Assembly (NCBI GenBank): GCA_018398765.1
Contig: JAHBMJ010005932.1
Span: 27,136 to 59,379 of the forward strand
DNA from: Chromera velia
Taxonomy: Eukaryota; Sar; Chromeraceae
Direction of reading: 5' to 3'
Length of the DNA: 32,244 nucleotides
Numbering within the stretch: position 1 is the stretch's first letter; each line of letters opens with the position of its first letter. The notes below the pieces were generated by a model that was not told the origin of the DNA, did not search any database, and worked only from the letters and a program-made list of their open reading frames with translations. This document shows positions 7,844 through 23,107 of this stretch, in pieces. The translations under genes were made by a program, and so were the position numbers.

Positions 7844-7917
<74 letters not shown>

Positions 7918-8894
7918 TGAGGGTAATGGACGACAAAGAGTGGGGGGGAAATCGCTGCCCTGACATGCAGGTTGAGCGCTGACCTGACGGACTTGACGCC
8001 GAAGGGGGTCTCTGTCACTCGAATGGACGAGAACAAGGGTGAAAGGGATTGGAGACACCAACAGCATCGAGGCATGTCTGCTCCAGGGACGGCCAAACAG
8101 AGTAGACCTCCTTTTCGGAGATACCGAATCGCGAGCGTCAACTTGTTTCGCAAAATCAAAAAGGGTGCCGCAGGCTTCAACCCCCTTTCCTTGATCCTTG
8201 CATGTTGTCTTCCATCCCCAACCACCCCACAATTGACAATCCCAAAAGAGCCGAAGCCGCCCCCTACCAATATATTCCCAAGAGTGTCATCGAGAAGAGG
8301 GACAGAGTCCAGCTGCGACAAGTCACATTGGATGACATTCACATGAATCCCCCAAAGGCTCTCCGAGTCCATCCTGACCCCTCCTTCTTCTTCTGCCAGC
8401 GTCACTCCCTCGATTTGGTCGGGAGGGAAGCGGAGGTTCATGCAGAGATACTTGAGCAGCCCTCCAGGCGCACAGCCCAGGTCAAGGGCGGATTTCATGT
8501 CTTTGGGGCAGGAGCGGAAATTATGCACAAGCCCAAGGCGGTCAAAGAGCTCTGCATACTTTTTGCGATACTTTTCAGGGTTCTGTGTCTGGTTTTTCGT
8601 CACACTTGTGGAGCCCGACTGCCGTTTGTGTTGTGCCTCTCTCCGCTGGAAGAACTCACTGCGACACTGCCAGCCAACCTCCAATGCGGGTGAACACCAG
8701 CCCTTTGTCTTCTCACACTTCAGCTGCCACCATTCGGAGTGAGCTGCTTTCACGTCTCTGAAGAACGAAACACGAGTATCCTCGTCGGTCTTTTCGGGTT
8801 GATCTGATAAGGCAAGACCGAGTTTCTCGTAATCCCCACATAGAGCTGCAAAAGACAACATCACGTAGGGCTCTAATGCGAAGGAATTTAACAA
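6584..8894 (-). CDS. FtsJ-like (Rossmann-fold) methyltransferase-domain protein with charged C-terminal extension
   Basis: Two exons: 8894 (or Met at 8861) down to 7984, and 7364 down to the stop at 6584-6586. The intron starts GTCAGC and ends TGCAG, and the 2+1 phase joins cleanly. The 552 to 563 residue product has a SAM-binding motif I, SALDLGCAPGG, at about residues 135-145 (counting from 8894). It is followed by GVTLA, a CDLSQL segment, and IRYLRKGGLLCL, which matches the strand 5 region of FtsJ proteins. The usual K-D-K-E residues are hard to find: NCG stands where a CDG-type motif is expected, and the Lys after GG is replaced. The C-terminal part is Glu/Arg-rich (REELEEQRRRLEEFLQ) and may form a coiled coil. 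The 5' end is uncertain, because TTTTGCAG at about 8850 could be an acceptor for an upstream exon. Its substrate is unknown; rRNA, tRNA or cap methylation is only a family possibility. Confidence 0.72.
7838..7917. repeat. (CT)n/(CA)n microsatellite in the intron of the FtsJ-like gene
   Basis: Alternating CT and CA dinucleotide runs lie inside the intron at 7365-7983. The minus-strand exon frame runs into it as Cys-Val and Arg-Glu repeats, which supports ending the exon at 7984. Confidence 0.9.
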
Positions 8895-11858: not shown

Positions 11859-14665
11859 GTAGATTCTATTAGCGTGTCGGGACCGGCACTCCCCTTCTTC
11901 GTCCGGTTCTTGGAGCGTCTGCACGCCGCAAGAGAGAAGGGAGTCGAGGCGCTGCTCCTGAAGACCTTCGTCCTTGCGCGTGAGTAAGCCTGGAATTGCT
12001 CCTCAGAAGAGAAACAGACGGATGAAGTTTCATGCTCGTGTGCAATTCCGGAGTTTTTGTTGCATTCGTGACCTGTTTCGTGCAACCAAGGAGAGCTGCT
12101 CTGCAGCAGCTCTCTCTTCCGCCTTTTTTCCCTATGCAGGTCTGCATTGTGTGTGTATGTGTGTGTGTGTGTGTGTGTACGTGTGTTCTTCCTCTCTCGG
12201 AGATTCTACCTCCTGTTTCTCGTCATGCAGCTGACTCGAAAACGCTCCGACGATCTTTCCTCTTTTGCTGCCCTGTGTCGAGATCCTCAACTTAGCCGGT
12301 CAGTCCGTCCGTCAGTCAGTCGAGTGGGTGGAAGGCATCACTGAAGGCAGTATGGTGTTTTGCATGTGACTTTCCGTTGTTGCAAAGGTTCGCGTTTGTC
12401 ACGCCCTTTTAATTCTCCATGAAGAATTCCCATCAGGGATCACGCGGTCAGTCAGTGGGAAGGAGGGGTAGGAGTGTTCCGAAAGTCCCTTAATTTCCTT
12501 TTGTTTTTTTCTGACCGTATCAGAGCCGTGGAGTGAGTGACAAGTAGGTATACGAGGTCGTTCTGTGAAGAACCTCGAACGATGCACTCCTTTCCTTTGA
12601 TTCCAATGACTCACAATTGTGATGGGTTCTTTCTCTCAATGTAACGATACGTGCATGAGAGAATCCTTCACAAGAGAGTCATATTCCGTACCCTCATTCC
12701 GTCGTCAGGTAACTCTCTGGGCGCAGAGGGACTCCGGGCCTTGGTAGAGGCAGTCAGCACAGACAGCTAGAGCCGCATCTCTCCGAGAGCTCAGCCTTGA
12801 GGTGTGCGGACTAGAGAGAGAAAAATGGGGAATTCTTTGTGGTGCCATCAAGGAGAGGGGGTTGTTCTCATTGGAGTCCTTGAACCTCTCGCAGAACAGG
12901 TTGAGAGAACGGAACATGCGCATCACGCTCTGTCCTGTCCTGTCTGTCGCATCTCTTCCATCCCTTCGTGTGCTGTTCTTGCGACCCTGTGGGCTCAAAA
13001 ATAATCACATGGAGCAGCTTGCGTGTGTGATTGGGAGAGGGGGTCTTCCTTCCGAAATTGGAGGCGCTTTACTTGAATGGGAATCAATGGGAAGGGTCTG
13101 GGTTAGATCCTTTGACGAACGTGTTTCGCAGAGAATTCGTTTCTGAATTGAAGTATTTGAATCTGATGAAACAGTGCGACGAACGGAAGGGTGGCCAATG
13201 GATTCCATCTTTTCTATCTGCTCTGAAATCTCCAGAGTTCCCCCCCCCCCGCAGGAGAATGTAGAGGTTCCCTTGGGAGGAATCCCGGATGAGGACTTGC
13301 GCGCAGTCACTGCAGGGCGGTATCCCGCCATCCGCACAGTGGGCCTTCGCCTTGGTCCGCAAAAGCTGCGCATATTCATGCAAGAGGCTCAGCTTGCCGG
13401 AGCGCAAACTTTCAGTGCTGTTGATCTGCACGTGCACAATCAGACTGGGGAGGATGAAATGTTGCAGGATGGGCTGTGCGCACTCAGACGCAGCTGCGGG
13501 GGGACATTTGAGACGCCTCCGACAGTTGCGTGTCTCTCTGAATTTCAATTTGAGTGTCCACCCGGATGACACTCCCCTTCCTTTGGATGATCCCCTTTTC
13601 GCAGCCTTGAGTTGTTCCAAGTTCCCCTTTCTCTCCGAACTTTTTTTGATTCAGCTTGGGCTGACCGATGAGCACTTGACTGCCCTGGAAGAGGCATGCA
13701 GTGAGGGTGGGGAACCTGACCAGGCTTCGGATCCTTGACCTTCGCGGGCATTCGTATGGGTTTCATGAGAATTCGGGGAGTTTTGGAAGGGTGGGGATGG
13801 AGCAGTTGATGGGTGGGGTCGTAGATAGCTCGGACGGACTGCCTGTGCTTGAGCGTCTTGATTTCTCTAACTCGAGGGCGGGCAAGGGGATGGGGTCATT
13901 GGTGAGAGCGCTGAGGTCCGGCAAGCTGGGGGCCCTTGCAGAGATGAAATTGAATAATTCTAATATGCCCGAGGAGGCAATCCGAGATCTGTCTGCAGGC
14001 GTAAGGGAGGGAGGTCTTAGCGGAATTTCCTCTCTGCAACTGAAATCCAATCCGGACCAAAGGCGTGGGGGGAGAATGTGGGGGGAGTTCATGCAAGCCA
14101 TTGCTGAGAGCCAGAGGGGGCTCCCGAAGCTCCAATATCTGGACTTTTCGGGACACGAAGATTTTGCAATAGGGAAACCTGTGATCGCAGCCCTTGCGTC
14201 TGGAAATGTCCGTTTACTGAAACGGCTGGATTTTGAATCATTCCCACCGACGGCCGGTATCACTCTCAGCGGTGGTAGTCTGGGGATTCTGTGTGAGGGG
14301 GTAAGAGAAGGGATGTTCCCCCCTGGGCTGAAAGCCGATATGCGACTGAAAATAGACCCTCGCGAGGGCAGCTTTGATAGCCTGCTAACTGCCATTGCAG
14401 AAAGTAAGACCGGTCTTCCCCCTTGTATCAGTTCCCTGGACTTTGGTGGTTTAAAGTCTGTGATGAGGGGTGCGCGTTTTAGCGAGGAGGCGCTTGCCAT
14501 TCTTGCAGCGAGTGGGGGGAGGAACTCTGCGGGGAAGCTCTCGCATTTAGAGGAAGTGAACATGTCTTACTGTGACATTGATGATCAGAAACTGAAGAGG
14601 CTGGGGGAGGTCTTCTCTGCATACGGATGTTCCTCGTTAAAATTTTTGGATCTCCGCTGGATCCC

Positions 14666-16246
14666 TGCCGTTTGCAGGGGCGATCTTTATAAGACAAAAC
14701 GGCGACCGTGCTCTAGCGCACCACTAAATCACTTATCACTTATCACTTAATCAGCAAAGAATGTTTGTCAGTGTTCAGAAATCTTCTCACGTCAGGAGCC
14801 CTCCCTATATAGTTCGATGGACCTTCAAGATCAGCCACAGCTTCCGATTGCAGAATGGACTACTTAAATAATTTAGATATAATAGACTTGTATAAACTAT
14901 CATAACGCACATTAATTAATGTAGATATTGTTTATGTGTACGTATTTTGGTAAAAGTTATAGGCTTTCAGCTATATAATAAATAAAACACTGACCAAAAC
15001 ACGTTTTACCACACTTTTCGGATGAATTATAAGACAATTAAACATGATCGAATTCATTGAACCGAATCTTTGACCAGTCGATCTGTCACCTTTTATAGAG
15101 AGATTCTGAGACAGTAAGTCCTATAATTAAAGTAAATCATGACCTAGATCATGACTAATTATGTCATCATCATCATCATACACCATCGTCATCTGCCGGC
15201 CGTGGCCTAGACTAGTGGTCTAGCCTTCGAGGCTTCCAACGTTTAGCGAGAGACAAGCTCGGCAGCCCTCCCCCAAAATTAAAAGAGAAAGCACACTAAT
15301 TCTCTATGTTAGTTATTATTACTTAAAGACTAAGTTAAAGTCTGTATCAGTTTGGGGGGGGTGGGGTGAGGTGCCGCGCATTGCAGAGTCAGTGTGTGCC
15401 CGCTCGTGCGCGCATTGTGGAGCCGTTACATGTGCTTGGCCGCGCCCTAAGCTGCGCCACTCATGGCAGGTTTACATGGCAATGTATGCATTGAATCTAG
15501 ATCGATCAATCAGTGAGTACAATGAGCAGTTCTCCACAGTTTTCTTACTGTGTAGCCTCGTATGGAACAAGTAGGGATCTGACAAACTTTTTTGACAGAC
15601 TTTTTATCATCATCATCAATCATCATCAGATTTATATATATACGGTTAAAATCATTCTTTAAACTCTAAAGCTAGCTCTAAAATAGATTGACTCTCAACT
15701 ATATAGTAAGCCTCTAGTTTTTTTAGTTAACTGAATATAGTTATCTCTAAAATCATAAGTAAAATCAAGTAGAAAATCAATTAGAAATTTCAATGAGAAG
15801 CCTACTATATAGTTAAAAAAATAAAAAAAATAATAGACATTAGAATTTAAACTTACATAGTAATTGTTAATTAAGTTTTAGTTCCAAAGCTAGTTCCGAA
15901 GTTAGAGTTTTAGGCTAGGTTTTGGGTATTCTATTAAAGTATCATAATTCCAAGGCCCGCTTAAACCTAGGCTTAAATCACGTAACGGTCCACGTTCAAC
16001 TAAAAGTCTAGTTACAAGTTCGACAGTGAATGTAAAGTTGTTTTTTTAAAGAACTTCGTTGATCACTATACGTTTTCCTTTATCTTTTAAATGGTTTTCA
16101 AAGTTAAAGTTTTCGTACCGACGTATTCTATCAGCATCTATATACTAGTAGATCAGCCCATCGCTTGCCGTCTCTGTGCATCTTCTAGTGTAGTAGTGCA
16201 TCTTTCTGCCTTTTTCCGTCTCCTTTGCCCCCCCCTCTCTTTTTGA
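14666..16246. other. AT-rich intergenic island
   Basis: I see no credible gene. The sequence is strongly AT-rich apart from a GC-rich patch at about 15360-15480. CATCAT runs occur at about 15163-15180 and 15607-15630. The stretch 15202-15223 can form a bulged hairpin (GGC[C]TAGAC / GTCTAGCC). A 19-base inverted repeat pairs 15697-15715 with 15796-15814. The island separates the broken end of the LRR pseudogene from the 3' end of the convergent ABM gene. Confidence 0.7.
15697..15814. repeat. Imperfect inverted repeat, 19-base arms
   Basis: Arms at 15697-15715 and 15796-15814 are reverse complements with two mismatches, separated by about 80 AT-rich bases. This could be a small foldback element or a chance pairing in low-complexity DNA. 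Confidence 0.5.
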
Positions 16247-17329
16247 CTACACACCTTTCTGACTAGAAAGGGTGAGAACTCCCTCAAAGAAACGAAGCTT
16301 TGGGGGACCCAGGTAAAGTCCCTCAGGGGTACTGCTAGTGGGTGGCACCACTGAGCTGCTGCTGCTGTCTGCAGAGTCTGAGACGGGAGGGGGGGGTGGC
16401 GATGCGTTGGCGTGCGCAGCCTTGAACTGAGCAGATGATCGCCAGTTGGAAAAGGCCGCTCGATCTCTCCAAATTGTGGTGACCATGTAATTATACCCAT
16501 CGTCTGCCTTCGTAGCGTCTCTTCTGAGGAGGAGAAATCCAACGAAGCCATCTGACTCCTTCAACTTGCTCTCCCTCTGCTTCCACTTCTGTTCAAATTC
16601 AGCCTCCTTCCCCGCCCGCACGCTGAACCTGTTCTGGCTCACGAAGATCTCCCCAGGCAAAGCCGTCTCCCCATCAGCTTTCACTGTACGCCATCCACCG
16701 TCGCTTGCAAAGTCCAACCTCTCTCCTGGTACAGGAATCAGAGCGTCATAGAACGCAGGCTTCGGTGCACCATCCACGATGAACAGTGCTGTGGAGAGCA
16801 ACTGAATGAACGACATGATCCCCCCCCCACCGTGTGCTTCCTTGAACGCGTCTCCCGTTCTCCAGGCTTCGAAAGCTTCCTTGTCCTCCCAGACTGTGAA
16901 CGAGACGTAATTCCCGAAATCACCCTCCGAAGAGTAGTCGACACCCTCTGCCTCAGTGCGGCGAAGAAGAGCAAAAAAGCGGAAACCATCCAGCTCCGCT
17001 AAGCGACTCTTCCGGTCTGCCCATCTCTTCTCGAAAGCGGGTCCCTTTCCGGGTCGAACTTTGAACCTGTTTGTTGCAACGTACCGCTCCGGAAGAAGCG
17101 ACTCCGAGGTGAGAGCCTTATTCTCTGCCAATGCCTCAGCGAAGTGCATACGTAGAACCGGCGTTCGGCTCTGTGTCTTTCTAAGTGTTTGTGCAACCGG
17201 GAACGACGCAGCGCCGTCTCCTGTGAGGAGACGGGACAGCGAAAACGCCGCCGTCTCTCCAAAGAGACAGAGCAGAAGAAGACTTCCAAGGGCCAAGCAA
17301 GACATCTTGAACGGAACTTCACTAGTCAC
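16247..17329 (-). CDS. Plastid-targeted tandem ABM-domain protein, IsdG-type haem-degrading monooxygenase
   Basis: A single uninterrupted frame of 360 codons; Met at 17305 (residue 9) is the better start because it opens the hydrophobic signal peptide. The leader ends GETAA|FSLSRLL, a signal peptide followed by Phe and a basic, Ser-rich transit peptide, as in complex plastids. Two ABM (antibiotic biosynthesis monooxygenase) domains follow, about residues 82-170 and 228-310. Each carries the Asn-Trp-His triad of IsdG/IsdI haem oxygenases: N87, W156, H166 and N233, W296, H306, with ten residues from Trp to His in both, as in IsdG. The domain ends FEAWRTGDAFKEAH and FSNWRSSAQFKAAH closely match the family. 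The C-terminal 50 residues are Pro/Ser-rich. Likely role (inference): opening haem to release iron inside the plastid. Other ABM enzymes act on different substrates, so the activity is not proven. Confidence 0.82.
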   Translation of the reverse strand: MTSEVPFKMSCLALGSLLLLCLFGETAAFSLSRLLTGDGAASFPVAQTLRKTQSRTPVLRMHFAEALAENKALTSESLLPERYVATNRFKVRPGKGPAFEKRWADRKSRLAELDGFRFFALLRRTEAEGVDYSSEGDFGNYVSFTVWEDKEAFEAWRTGDAFKEAHGGGGIMSFIQLLSTALFIVDGAPKPAFYDALIPVPGERLDFASDGGWRTVKADGETALPGEIFVSQNRFSVRAGKEAEFEQKWKQRESKLKESDGFVGFLLLRRDATKADDGYNYMVTTIWRDRAAFSNWRSSAQFKAAHANASPPPPPVSDSADSSSSSVVPPTSSTPEGLYLGPPKLRFFEGVLTLSSQKGV

Positions 17330-18105: not shown

Positions 18106-20158
18106 ATGTTGTCAGCATCCCACCATGCAAGGGTGTTGCGCGCGCTCAACCCATCAACAAGTCCTGCAACACATCTGACAAAGACAAAGACCGCTTCTAC
18201 AGAGGCCACGGATGACCCCACTCGTTTGAATGTCGCAGAAGCCCAAGCAACACAGCAGAAGGCAGTTAAGGGAAAAGAGAGAGACGACAGCATGGGGGCG
18301 AGTAAACGTTTTTTTGGATGGCACGGGCCGTCTCCCCGGTTGGACGACTACGCAGCAGCACTAGGGCTCCCTCCGAAAGATATCCCCCCCGGCTCCCCAA
18401 ATACGTCTGGTGTGCTCTGTGACCGTCTCCTTGAAGACGTCAAATTACCGCACCGATGCAAGAGCAGTGCGATCGTAAGGGCAGCCCAGATGGGGCATGT
18501 TGCGATTTTGGAAGCTCCGCTTGCCCCGGGTAACCCAGTGTTCGTCTGCAGGTCCCCACAGATGACCTCCAACAATCCCCTTCGGGTTGACCTTGAAGAC
18601 CTTGAACTTTCCTCCTTTCCCGTCTTGGTCAGTGGCCCTTCCTCGGTAGAGAATGTGGGCAGTGTTCAGTTGATGTCCCTACGAGGGAACCGAGTGCACA
18701 GACTGAAGAGCGGATCCCTCGCGGAGATGGGGAGACTGAGGGTTTTGGACGTGGGGGGGAACAGGCTTGAGCAGCTTGAGGGCCTTGAGGGTTTGTCCGA
18801 GCTATTGGTCCTGCTTGCTGGGAGGAACCAACTAAGCAGGCTGACAGGCTTAGAGTACCTCTGCAGACTCGACGTGCTCGATCTGGGCACCAACCTGGTC
18901 GGTCGGTCGGTCGGTCAGTCAGTTAGCTTTTTAGGTCAAAGGTACTCATGAAGAGCAAGTCACAGAAAGAAAGAAATTAAGATTTGCTTGGATTAAAGCG
19001 CCCAGGGGTGGAGGATGGAGAAAGAATGACTGAAAGAATAAGAGACCGCTCACATGCAGACCAGAACAACAGCATGGGTGGAGAAACATTGACGGAGAGA
19101 CAGTTCATGAATCCCAAATGCTTCCTTCCTTCCACTGCTTGGGTGCGCTCGCCCTGCCTCCTTTGCGTGTGTGGATTCTTCTGCGTCTCCACACGTCTCT
19201 GTTAGTCGCTCCCTTCCGCACTCCATGAGCGTCGTTGACTGTCTATCTGTCTTTCTGACTGTCCATTGAGCTGGCTGTCCGTGTTTCTGCTTTCAGCTTC
19301 GGCACATCGAGCCCGACGCGTTCCTGAATCTGAAGGAACTCCGCATTCTCCGTCTGACGGGGAACCGCCTGAGGAGACTGGAGCATCTCTCCCACCTGGT
19401 GTCTCTAGTTGAACTCTCGGCAGGTGCCAACGAGATCGAGAGCGCGAGAGATCTTTCTGTCTCTGCCCTCCCGAACCTTTCCCGACTGTTCTTAGAGAAC
19501 AACCGGATAGACTCTCTCGTCAATCTTCATAAAATCCCAGAGGCCACAAAATTGAAGGAATTAGCTCTCTCAGGTAATCCCCTCGCTCTATCCCCTTCCT
19601 ACCGGAGCCAGGTGCTGGAGTGTCTGCCTCGACTTTCGTTCCTTGATGGTGTTGCCGTCCCCGAAAAACAACAGATACAAAACTCTGCAGAGGTCTCAAG
19701 GGAAGGGAGGACTGAGGTCTCGGACAAATCGGTAAATTCAGCATCGCAACACCCCCCTCCGCTCCCCCCACCCAGCAGAGTCACGACCCAAACAACCAGA
19801 GGGACAGGAAGTCAAAGACCACGACATGATGCACCTCCGGGTGTCGGTGCTTCATTGCTTGCTGTTGACAGGCAGGAGGCCCCAGGGGCTGGGGACCCTA
19901 CTTCCCCTTCGCCCTCCCCTTCTCCGTCTTCTGCCGGTCCCCCTTTAGATAGGGATAGGGAGAGAGAAAGGAAGGAAAAGCCGGCGAAGGGGTCGTCTCC
20001 CTCCGGTCCGTCCTCTTCCTCGGGAGGAGGCGGTCAAGGTCAACCTCTTCCTTCCAGACAGGACGTCCTCTCTGAGATCCGCTCTCAGTGGGATGCTGCA
20101 GCAGTTGCAAGGAAGGTTGGAAGTTGCAGGTCCGTCTCTCTGTCTGTCTGCCTCTCTT

Positions 20159-20192
<34 letters not shown>

Positions 20193-23107
20193 ATGAAGAA
20201 AAGAAGGGAGAAGAAGAAACATATAGTCTGTCTGTCTGTCTGTCTTATACAGTAACACACACATACATGCACTCACACACATACACACACACACATACAC
20301 ACACACACACACGCACACGCATTCTTTCCATCTGGGCGGGGGGGCAAAAGAAGAGATCCAACAAGAAGAGAGGGGCTGGAAATCCATTGTTAGTGTTGTC
20401 TTCGTCAAAGGAAAACGATAAAGGGAACCCCAGAAGAAGAAAAGAAAAGAGAAAGGGAACCCCAGAAAAAAGGAAAAAAGAAAATGCTACTGCTGCTGGC
20501 GGTTGGGGGCCGCTGCTGCTGCTGCCTCGTAAACGAAAGGAGAAGAAAAGAAACGAACACGTCCAGATGGAAAGATTGTGGAAGTGCAAAGGCGTAAGCC
20601 TGCACTGGGCAAGGAAGGGCCGCAGGGTACGCTTAAGGCCTGGAGCTCTGGTACCCTTCCACTGAGAGAGCGCGCCAAAAGAAGAAAGAAAGAAACAGAA
20701 CAGAAGAGAATGAAGAAGGAGAAAAAGGGAAAGAAAAGACGATATAGTATGTCTGTCTGTCTTTTGTCTTTGTTCTTTCTTTCTTTTTGTCTGTTGTGTT
20801 CACGAAGAAAAGGAGGGAGAAGAAGGAGAAACATATAGTCTGTCTGCCTCTCTTTCTGTCTGTCTGTCTGTCTGATATAGTCTGTCTGTCTGTCTGTCTG
20901 TCATATAGTCTGTCTGTCTGTCTGTCTGTTCTTTCTTCCCTTTGTCTGTTGTGTTCATGAAGAAAAGAAGGGAGAAGAAGAAACATATAGTCTGTCTGTC
21001 TGTCTGTCTGCCTCTCTTTCTGTCTGTCTGTCTGTCTGCCTCTCTTTCTGTCTGTCTGGGGAAGGTGCTTTGTTTGGGTTTGTGGGGCCCCACATCGATA
21101 TGTCATCATCTTGAAGTGAAATGAATTGATTTGAGTTATCAGATTGGCCTGCAGCCTGTGAACGTTTGCTTCGACGCTTTCCTTCCGTCTTGATGTCTTC
21201 ATTTCATATGCAAACTTCTCTGTCGATCTCTCTTTCAGTGAGCAAAAGGGAAACGATGTGCGATCAAGATATCTGACAATAATTTTGCTCTTCCTTCAGT
21301 CAGCACTCCAAAAGCGTGATGAAGAAAGAGGAAAAGGCAACAAGAAAGAGAGACACCCATAGTATTTTGGCCAGATGTGCTTGTCTCTCTCATTCTGTCG
21401 CATGAATGATATGGATGACTGGCATGATCATGCAGGTACGGGTACGTGAAGCGTGAGGAGTCTTTCGAGCTGTTCATTTACGGGAGAGGCCTGGACGCTC
21501 TCGACAAGGAGGAGTATCGTCAGGCTGTGTCCTCCCTGCACTTCCTCTACGTTCCTGCCAGGTGGGTCGGTAGAGGGCGTAGCTCAGAATGAGGGAGTGA
21601 GGGAGCAGCGGGAAAGCGTTCAGTGCCCTCTTGTCTCCCCCCAAAACGCGACTGTGTCACAGAGTTTCGGTGTCGTGGGATGCGGCAAGATGGTGATAAT
21701 CCAAGCCTCTTTCCTTTTGTTTCCTTTCATATCTGACTGTTCCTGTGGATTCTCTCTTGAAGCTGAACGAGCCAATGCTCTCTGTGCTCTGAGGGGATCC
21801 CCTCTTTCCTTCCTTCCTTCCTTCCTGTATGGCGGTGGTATGATGGTGAGTGAGCAAGCTCATGCGGCCAGCCACTAGTCTTCCACCGAGGCAGGCGGCT
21901 CGAGCGGTTTCCTCATTGTTTGAAGCACACAGTGATCAACGACGGTGACTGACTATTGTCTGGCAAGATGAAGAAAAGAGAATCTGCAAAAGTACGCTTT
22001 CTTGCTCCCTCCCTTCCCCCCTTCCCTCCTTTTTTGCCTCCTGCGCCTTCCTTCCTTCCTGAAATTCGTTTTCTCTTCCTGGATGGATGCAGCCACATCG
22101 GGCGGGCTGTGAAACGGCTGTCTGCTTTTGTGAGTCTGTCTGCGTTGACTCTCTCAAAAAATCTTTTGGAGACTCCAGAGGATCTCCGCCCCCTTACCGT
22201 GCTGCCCTCCCTGAGGAGGCTGATTGTTCTCCACAACGGCCTCGTCAGTAGACAGTGGTCCCTCCTGCAGGGAGGCACACCTCCCAAAGTGTCCAGCATA
22301 GACGGTTTAGAATCTTCCGTGCTCCCGGGGGGAGGGGCCCCGGGGGCGAGTCAGCTGCATCGACAGCGAGAGAGTGGGCGTGCCCATCTTCTCTTGTCTG
22401 TGTCTTCAGTGCTCCCCCAGCTCCACTTCTTCAACGGGTCCCCTATAGGACTAGATCTAAGACAGCAGGCAGCCGGACTCACCGAGGCCCTTTCGGGACT
22501 CTCATCGCTCCCCCCCCCTTTGCGCTCCGAGGACCCGTCTCCTTTGTCACTCGTGCCTGTTGGGGATGCTGGTGTTGGTGGACAGAGAGACAGAACAGAT
22601 TTGTTCAAAGAAAAGGATGGGTTGAAGGAGAGAGAACAGAAGAGGCGGAAGGGAAGAAGAGGGGAGGAGGGAGACACAGCTTTGAAGGAAGGGGCGCCCT
22701 GCAGATTGCCAGTGCATTTGTGCAGAGAGGCAGGGGACGACAGTGTGGGTTTGGCAGAGTCTGTAGAGCGCGCGGTCTCGTCAAAAATCGTGCTGCTTGC
22801 AGCGGCAGCAGTGGCTGCTGCAAAACCCCACTCGTCGTCTTCGTCTGGAACGACTCGCGAAAGAGAGCGACAGAGAAAGGCCGCGGCAGAACTCGCGTTC
22901 GAGCGCCAGTCTGCTGCCCGTGCCTCTGATCTTGCTTGCGCCCTCCTTGCTGACGCTGCACGTTGTGCTTCGCGTCGTTCAAGGGTTGAAGCGGCGTTCC
23001 GTTCATGTGTTCGTCGGCTTGTACGAGAAGCGTTCTGGGAAGCAGAAACTGGGCGTCCTTGGCCTGTAGGTGGGGGCGAAACTTCATGCATTGGTGAGAT
23101 CTTATGA
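18106..23107 (+). CDS. LRRC49/TPGS4-like leucine-rich-repeat protein (tubulin polyglutamylase complex subunit)
   Basis: Four exons join in frame: 18106-18897, 19297-20129, 21436-21561 and 22093-23107, giving 921 residues. An in-frame TAA just upstream of 18106 supports this start. Exons 1 and 2 encode SDS22-style LRRs (LRVLDVGGNRLEQLEGLEGL, LRILRLTGNRLRRLEHL, LSRLFLENNRI) and a cap (LPRLSFLDG). A long Ser/Pro-rich linker and EIRSQWDAAAVARK follow. Then comes YGYVKREESFELFIYGRGLDALDKEE, followed by LPSLRRLIVLHNG and LPQLHFFNGSPIG. That order and the Leu-Phe-Gly-Gly-Leu-Asp-Leu-Asp pattern match what I know of LRRC49, a subunit that anchors tubulin polyglutamylase at centrioles and cilia. The C-terminus is a long Ala/Arg/Glu-rich extension. 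A GTGAGA at 23093 could be a donor to further exons. Introns begin GTCGGT, GTCCGT and GTGGGT. Another LRR protein of cilia is possible. Confidence 0.72.
18898..18923 (+). repeat. Tandem GTCG/GTCA units at a 5' splice site
   Basis: The exon ending at 18897 is followed by four GTCG units and then GTCAGTCAGT. Any of these could serve as a donor, four bases apart, but only the first keeps the frame with the exon at 19297. Confidence 0.7.
20130..21435 (+). repeat. Repeat-filled intron of the LRRC49-like gene
   Basis: This 1.3 kb intron holds (TCTG)n tracts (about 20155-20190, 20830-20935, 20990-21058) and an (AC)n tract (about 20255-20320). Three copies of a block of about 38 bases containing GAAGAAAAG...AACATATAGTCTG lie at about 20192-20230, 20801-20842 and 20956-20994. 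The last two sit in a duplication with a period of about 155 bases. A GGGAACCCCAGAA word is repeated at about 20424 and 20455. Confidence 0.85.

Follow-up and report, generated by a model that had tools for sequence, protein, structure and literature searches.

Introduction

Staphylococcus IsdG and IsdI and Mycobacterium MhuD are haem degraders with one domain per chain and form homodimers (accessible part of PMC4835899). Bacillus subtilis HmoB, according to the same part of that paper, binds haem by its C-terminal domain only, and its N-terminal haem helix is degraded. Bradyrhizobium HmuQ and HmuD are reported to produce biliverdin (accessible part of PMC6449446). Chlamydomonas reinhardtii LFO1 is a eukaryotic protein with one ABM domain, an IsdG-type triad and a predicted chloroplast leader; it degrades haem, its triad mutants are impaired, and its product is unlike biliverdin, staphylobilin and mycobilin (PMC5557675). 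Here, a Chromera velia gene is described from contig JAHBMJ010005932.1, within a stretch of 32,244 nucleotides (the window). It encodes a tandem of two IsdG/HmuQ-type ABM domains behind a leader that likely directs the protein to the plastid.

Results

Both domains belong, by sequence, to the IsdG/HmuQ haem-degrader group. Each passes the Pfam ABM model separately (60.6 bits for domain 1 and 63.4 bits for domain 2; cut-off 23.1), and the two are 45% identical across 86 positions. The first-pass annotation had described two complete ABM domains with IsdG-like triads; all six residues were confirmed at the positions in Table 1, with a Trp-His spacing of ten in both domains. Alignments with relatives and PDB sequences place the Asn-Trp-His triad at the IsdG-family columns in both domains, and the final strand is present in each. 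A chance triad was rejected because each domain alone passes Pfam ABM and has its Asn, Trp and His in family columns.

The best NCBIfam model for each domain is haem-degrading HmuQ (NF053649; rhizobial HmuQ/HmuD), at 84.3 and 77.6 bits singly and with the same triad. The next models for each domain are haem oxygenase models, including IsdI and IsdG. The curated HmuQ cut-off is 130 bits; the whole protein passes it (155.7 bits) because the scores of its two domains add up, and neither domain does so singly. Membership of HmuQ by the whole-protein score was therefore rejected, and the protein is placed as a HmuQ relative within the IsdG superfamily. A PDB sequence search with domain 1 (E ≤ 0.01) returned IsdG, IsdI, MhuD or HmoB in 15 of 16 matches, and in the whole-protein search SnoaB and other non-haem ABM proteins came no better than E 0.06. 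The HO-1 domain (PF01126) is not among the four Pfam families that match this protein up to E 10. Profile matches, PDB sequence matches and triad-bearing relatives thus bear out the proposed relationship of both domains to IsdG-type haem degraders.

Both halves are folded in the AlphaFold model, with a low predicted local distance difference test score (pLDDT) between the domains and moderate overall model confidence. The full model matches the two-domain structures 3mcs and haem-bound HmoB across both domains. Since both halves fold and these matches span both, the model supports, as a prediction, a single chain that forms a fused dimer with an intramolecular barrel, as had been proposed. Compared with HmoB, sulphur oxygenase reductases are the better match to the full model. 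Structural alignments with IsdG, IsdI and MhuD show 19–37% identity. In models of domain 1 a helix ends at or next to His166, and the insert that follows has low pLDDT. Domain 1 thus keeps its triad and its modelled helix, where HmoB has a degraded N-terminal haem helix. The structure ranking of domain 1 does not tell haem from non-haem ABM proteins, since IsdG/IsdI and the non-haem members differ by less than one Z unit; its sequence matches favour the haem degraders. The first full-length alignment, which placed relatives on domain 1 and relatives' tails on domain 2, was excluded from folding.

Bacterial genomes were scanned with one peptide pattern, which gave at least 579 relatives; the best 80 were retained. 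The titles of these 80 are proteobacterial apart from one Chloroflexi. The triad pattern is present in 80/80, where Asn is given by construction because the scan pattern included NRF, i.e. the triad Asn; Trp and His are independent. A HemP, HmuS or haemin-binding protein gene lies within the fetched stretch at 29 of the 80 loci (HemP or HmuS at 27 of them), a raw count in which loci are related and some stretches are short. A six-frame scan detected no second domain in 80/80 loci. Plasmid records gave 71 matches, and among the 40 listed both query halves map to a single stretch no longer than 396 bases. Ten aligned plasmid relatives have the triad. A Sinorhizobium plasmid carries its relative near haemin ABC, haemin-degrading factor and hemP genes, and a Chelatococcus plasmid near hemP, haemin-binding protein and haemoglobin-receptor genes. 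Five further annotated plasmid regions contain no haem-uptake gene, and three more regions are without annotation. A first bacterial scan and a viral scan confirmed no relatives.

The HmuQ profile was also searched against 398 genomes, a sample confined to Pseudomonadota in which only the best candidates were scored. Matches at E ≤ 1e-6 were found in 88 genomes; those that exceed the HmuQ cut-off have scores of 141–173 bits, and the others 42–108 bits. Against these ranges each C. velia domain ranks with the outlying relatives, at about half the bits of the bacterial matches over the cut-off. The triad is present in 20/20 stretches from sub-cut-off matches. No tandem was found among the matches in the 398 genomes; in the nine genomes with two matches, the pair is split between contigs or separated by over 300 kb. 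A second bacterial group from this search (L111-L123 and L129) has the same triad and scores about 72–90 bits to HmuQ. It has mostly VLRP or ILRP for LLRG, appears nearer to Thermus TT1380 by eye, and has several members in genomes of 1.6–2.9 Mb.

The tandem appears to have arisen by duplication of one domain that had already diverged. In 34 columns at least 95% of the 80 relatives agree; 22 of these columns are retained in domain 1 and 24 in domain 2. Eight conserved columns are changed in both domains, with the identical replacement residue at five. Both domains have Arg directly after the catalytic Trp, where 79/80 relatives have Thr. These shared odd residues suggest a single ancestral domain. 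In trees the two domains are sisters, with support by the Shimodaira–Hasegawa-like approximate likelihood ratio test (SH-aLRT) of 90 (92 rows) and 86/89 (35 of those 92), which is below the starred level. The trees agree weakly with duplication. Because branches are long, support is below that level and this protein is the only eukaryote included, duplication rests more on the odd residues than on the trees. Transfer of a ready-made bacterial tandem was set aside, as none was found in the 80 loci, the 40 listed plasmid matches or the Pseudomonadota matches.

The protein is likely plastid-targeted, judging from its leader. The sequence MSCLALGSLLLLCLFGETAA followed by Phe looks, by eye and hydropathy, like a signal peptide with a +1 Phe; 7 Arg/Lys and 5 Asp/Glu occur among the 54 residues that follow Phe29. 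A highly conserved Phe at +1 is reported for C. velia plastid proteins (accessible part of PMC6668581). Judged in this way, the leader agrees with the bipartite complex-plastid leader described by the first-pass annotation.

The open frame runs on the minus strand from 17329 to the stop at 16249-16247. A GTG at 17329 lies eight codons 5′ of the ATG and is residue 1 in the numbering used here. The ATG at 17305, the ninth codon of that frame, is likely the start codon; an in-frame stop lies upstream of it, with 28 open codons between. As the reading frame stays open, the gene is probably without introns. The gene has a GC content of 55%, compared with 37% for one 1.2-kb flank. Feature coordinates are given in Table 1.

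Table 1. Features of the tandem ABM gene, with positions in the window and residues numbered from the GTG at 17329.
Feature	Position	Strand	Remarks
Gene, single open frame, 352 aa plus stop	16247..17305	minus	ATG at 17305; stop 16249-16247
Predicted endoplasmic reticulum (ER) signal peptide, residues 9-28, T-A-A end before Phe29	17246..17305	minus	11-residue hydropathy up to 2.7; cleavage site by eye
Predicted plastid transit peptide, about residues 29-78, first residue Phe	17096..17245	minus	Composition; end approximate
ABM/IsdG domain 1, about residues 82-205, Asn87/Trp156/His166	16715..17086	minus	Last strand predicted at about 194-200, after the inserted stretch following His166
Interdomain linker, about residues 206-226	16652..16714	minus	Low pLDDT between domains
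ABM/IsdG domain 2, about residues 227-355, Asn233/Trp296/His306, tail LYLGPPKLRFFEGVL	16265..16651	minus	Alignments, Pfam, predicted model
Pro/Ser-rich insert, residues 310-335 (26 residues), from the His helix to the last strand of domain 2	16325..16402	minus	Alignments

The C. velia assembly (177.8 Mb, 4040 contigs) was searched for related genes. A protein search returned only the gene itself below E 0.1. An ABM family search added one exon, L003 (G000:C1411), with 32 bits to Pfam ABM. L003 lies at about 989-2460 on the minus strand, apparently in several exons, and an upstream frame has, by eye, a signal peptide ending SAGAF. When its peptide, joined by hand, is roughly aligned, it has other residues at the Asn and His triad columns and keeps 10 of the 34 conserved columns. 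From its sequence, L003 could be a non-haem ABM protein targeted to the plastid.

Two genes resemble ferredoxin-dependent bilin reductases, L012 (G000:C3520:47509-48240) and L013/L014 (G000:C155:12688-13461). The N-terminus of L012 has a hydrophobic stretch ending S-S-F, so a plastid pathway that uses biliverdin may be present in the same genome. An exon search of the genome for PF01126 gave no match, although an intron-split gene could escape it. An HO1 transcript is reported from C. velia (accessible part of PMC6920818), as are several HO homologues from chromerids (accessible part of PMC11634067). In view of these reports, the proposal that HO1 is absent and the tandem protein the only haem route was rejected.

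Leucine-rich-repeat-like frames, identified by eye and interrupted as if by introns, lie on both sides of the tandem gene in the window (12802-14750 and 18106-20196, both plus strand). A frame at 7857-8894 (minus strand) contains ALDLGCAPGGLLKYL and resembles an FtsJ-like methyltransferase by eye.

Discussion

The protein belongs to a kind already known, because an IsdG-family enzyme that carries a chloroplast leader has been described from an alga (LFO1) and eukaryotic two-ABM sequences are in print. The LFO1 study reports nine further IsdG-like eukaryotic proteins, the chromerid Vitrella included, and its methods (2017) split eukaryotic two-ABM sequences into NTERM and CTERM for the LFO1 tree (PMC5557675). 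The C. velia tandem could be among those sequences. By description, it resembles LFO1 in being eukaryotic and in its predicted plastid leader and IsdG-type triad. The predicted unstructured Ser/Gly/His region (45 aa) between the third helix and fourth strand of LFO1 (PMC5557675) is likewise comparable, by description, to the Pro/Ser-rich insert before the last strand of domain 2. LFO1 differs in that its ABM domain is single and its chloroplast transit peptide simple, where the C. velia protein has two domains and a bipartite leader. Domain 2 shares the HmuQ-like tail LYLGxP, and the likeness to Bradyrhizobium HmuQ/HmuD is again by description. The HmuQ-family relatives are single-domain proteins, often in haem-uptake loci, in contrast to the tandem. 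IsdG, IsdI and MhuD share the triad columns and fold of both domains but have a single domain per chain. HmoB uses one of its two domains for haem, whereas both C. velia triads are intact. Open-access literature searches returned no described fused IsdG dimer with both triads intact, and for IsdG with Chromera the accessible parts of the records contained nothing beyond work on Bacillus ferrochelatases. As far as these searches reach, the two-site fused form is undescribed.

The reading we favour, at somewhat better than even confidence, is a nuclear-encoded, probably plastid-targeted tandem IsdG/HmuQ-type enzyme whose duplicated domains form one barrel, hold haem at each domain and release iron. 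As modelled, the two domains would fold into one intramolecular alpha+beta barrel in place of the usual homodimer. By analogy with known family members, each domain would bind one haem, with the helix His as proximal ligand and Asn and Trp on the distal side. Haem would be oxidised with O2 and a reductant, and iron would be released in the plastid. Cytochrome turnover or excess synthesis could supply the haem. We infer haem binding, turnover and activity at both sites from the same analogy, and plastid location from the leader. The suggestion of a bilin-like product that could be unlike that of HO1 is not supported: the best-matching family includes Bradyrhizobium HmuQ/HmuD, which are reported to produce biliverdin, and LFO1 makes something else, so a distinct product cannot be assumed. 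Since HO1 is reported and bilin-reductase-like genes are present, the enzyme would act beside the ordinary route and not replace it. A stronger proposal is tentative and on balance doubtful. It holds that this is the first tandem haem-binding ferredoxin barrel with two working haem-degrading sites, possibly non-equivalent, that recycle plastid iron beside the HO1-bilin reductase pathway.

The idea of two working sites is weighed down by precedent, as tandem haem-binding barrels are said to keep the haem-binding His in one domain, with HmoB, an IsdG-family case, named among others (accessible part of PMC4835899). The barrel could thus be real with one domain, probably domain 2, catalytic and the other structural. 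Outside the conserved columns domain 1 matches the bacterial consensus less (18/68) than domain 2 (26/68), and its low-pLDDT insert after His166 is unusual. Such a division of labour is nevertheless unlikely, though a serious candidate, as domain 1 retains Asn, Trp, His and most highly conserved columns, with a modelled helix reaching His166 where that of HmoB is degraded. The triad and fold indicate a potential for binding, not turnover, and would also suit a plastid haem carrier, buffer or sensor. We give this a slim chance: LFO1 shares this triad, breaks down haem and is impaired by triad mutations, and a 2016 paper describes S. meliloti HmuQ, according to its title, as degrading haem.

A non-haem ABM enzyme (quinol oxygenase, aldehyde-scavenging or sulphur-oxygenase-like) with a coincidental triad would fit the breadth of Pfam ABM, the tied structural matches of domain 1 and the better match of sulphur oxygenase reductases to the full model. 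L003, the other ABM gene of the genome, also seems to lack the triad behind a similar-looking leader. This explanation is very improbable given the haem degraders that dominate the PDB sequence matches, the poor E values of SnoaB-type proteins, and a triad common to relatives that include those in haem-uptake loci. As to location, a signal peptide on its own would route the protein to the ER, the transit peptide was judged by composition, and the typical ASA-F motif is reported to be missing from those C. velia haem-pathway enzymes whose leaders are predicted to be bipartite (accessible part of PMC8233740). A secreted or ER/endomembrane protein is still quite unlikely in view of the conserved +1 Phe and of the charged residues that follow it.

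As a natural single-chain construct, the tandem enzyme makes the two sites of an IsdG-type dimer separately mutable. If it is active, an IsdG-type dimer can be fused without loss of a site, contrary to the pattern of tandem haem barrels. Activity would also raise the question of how plastid haem is shared between the tandem enzyme and the HO1-bilin reductase route. The known range of IsdG-type haem degradation would then include a secondary plastid, apparently that of a photosynthetic relative of apicomplexan parasites.
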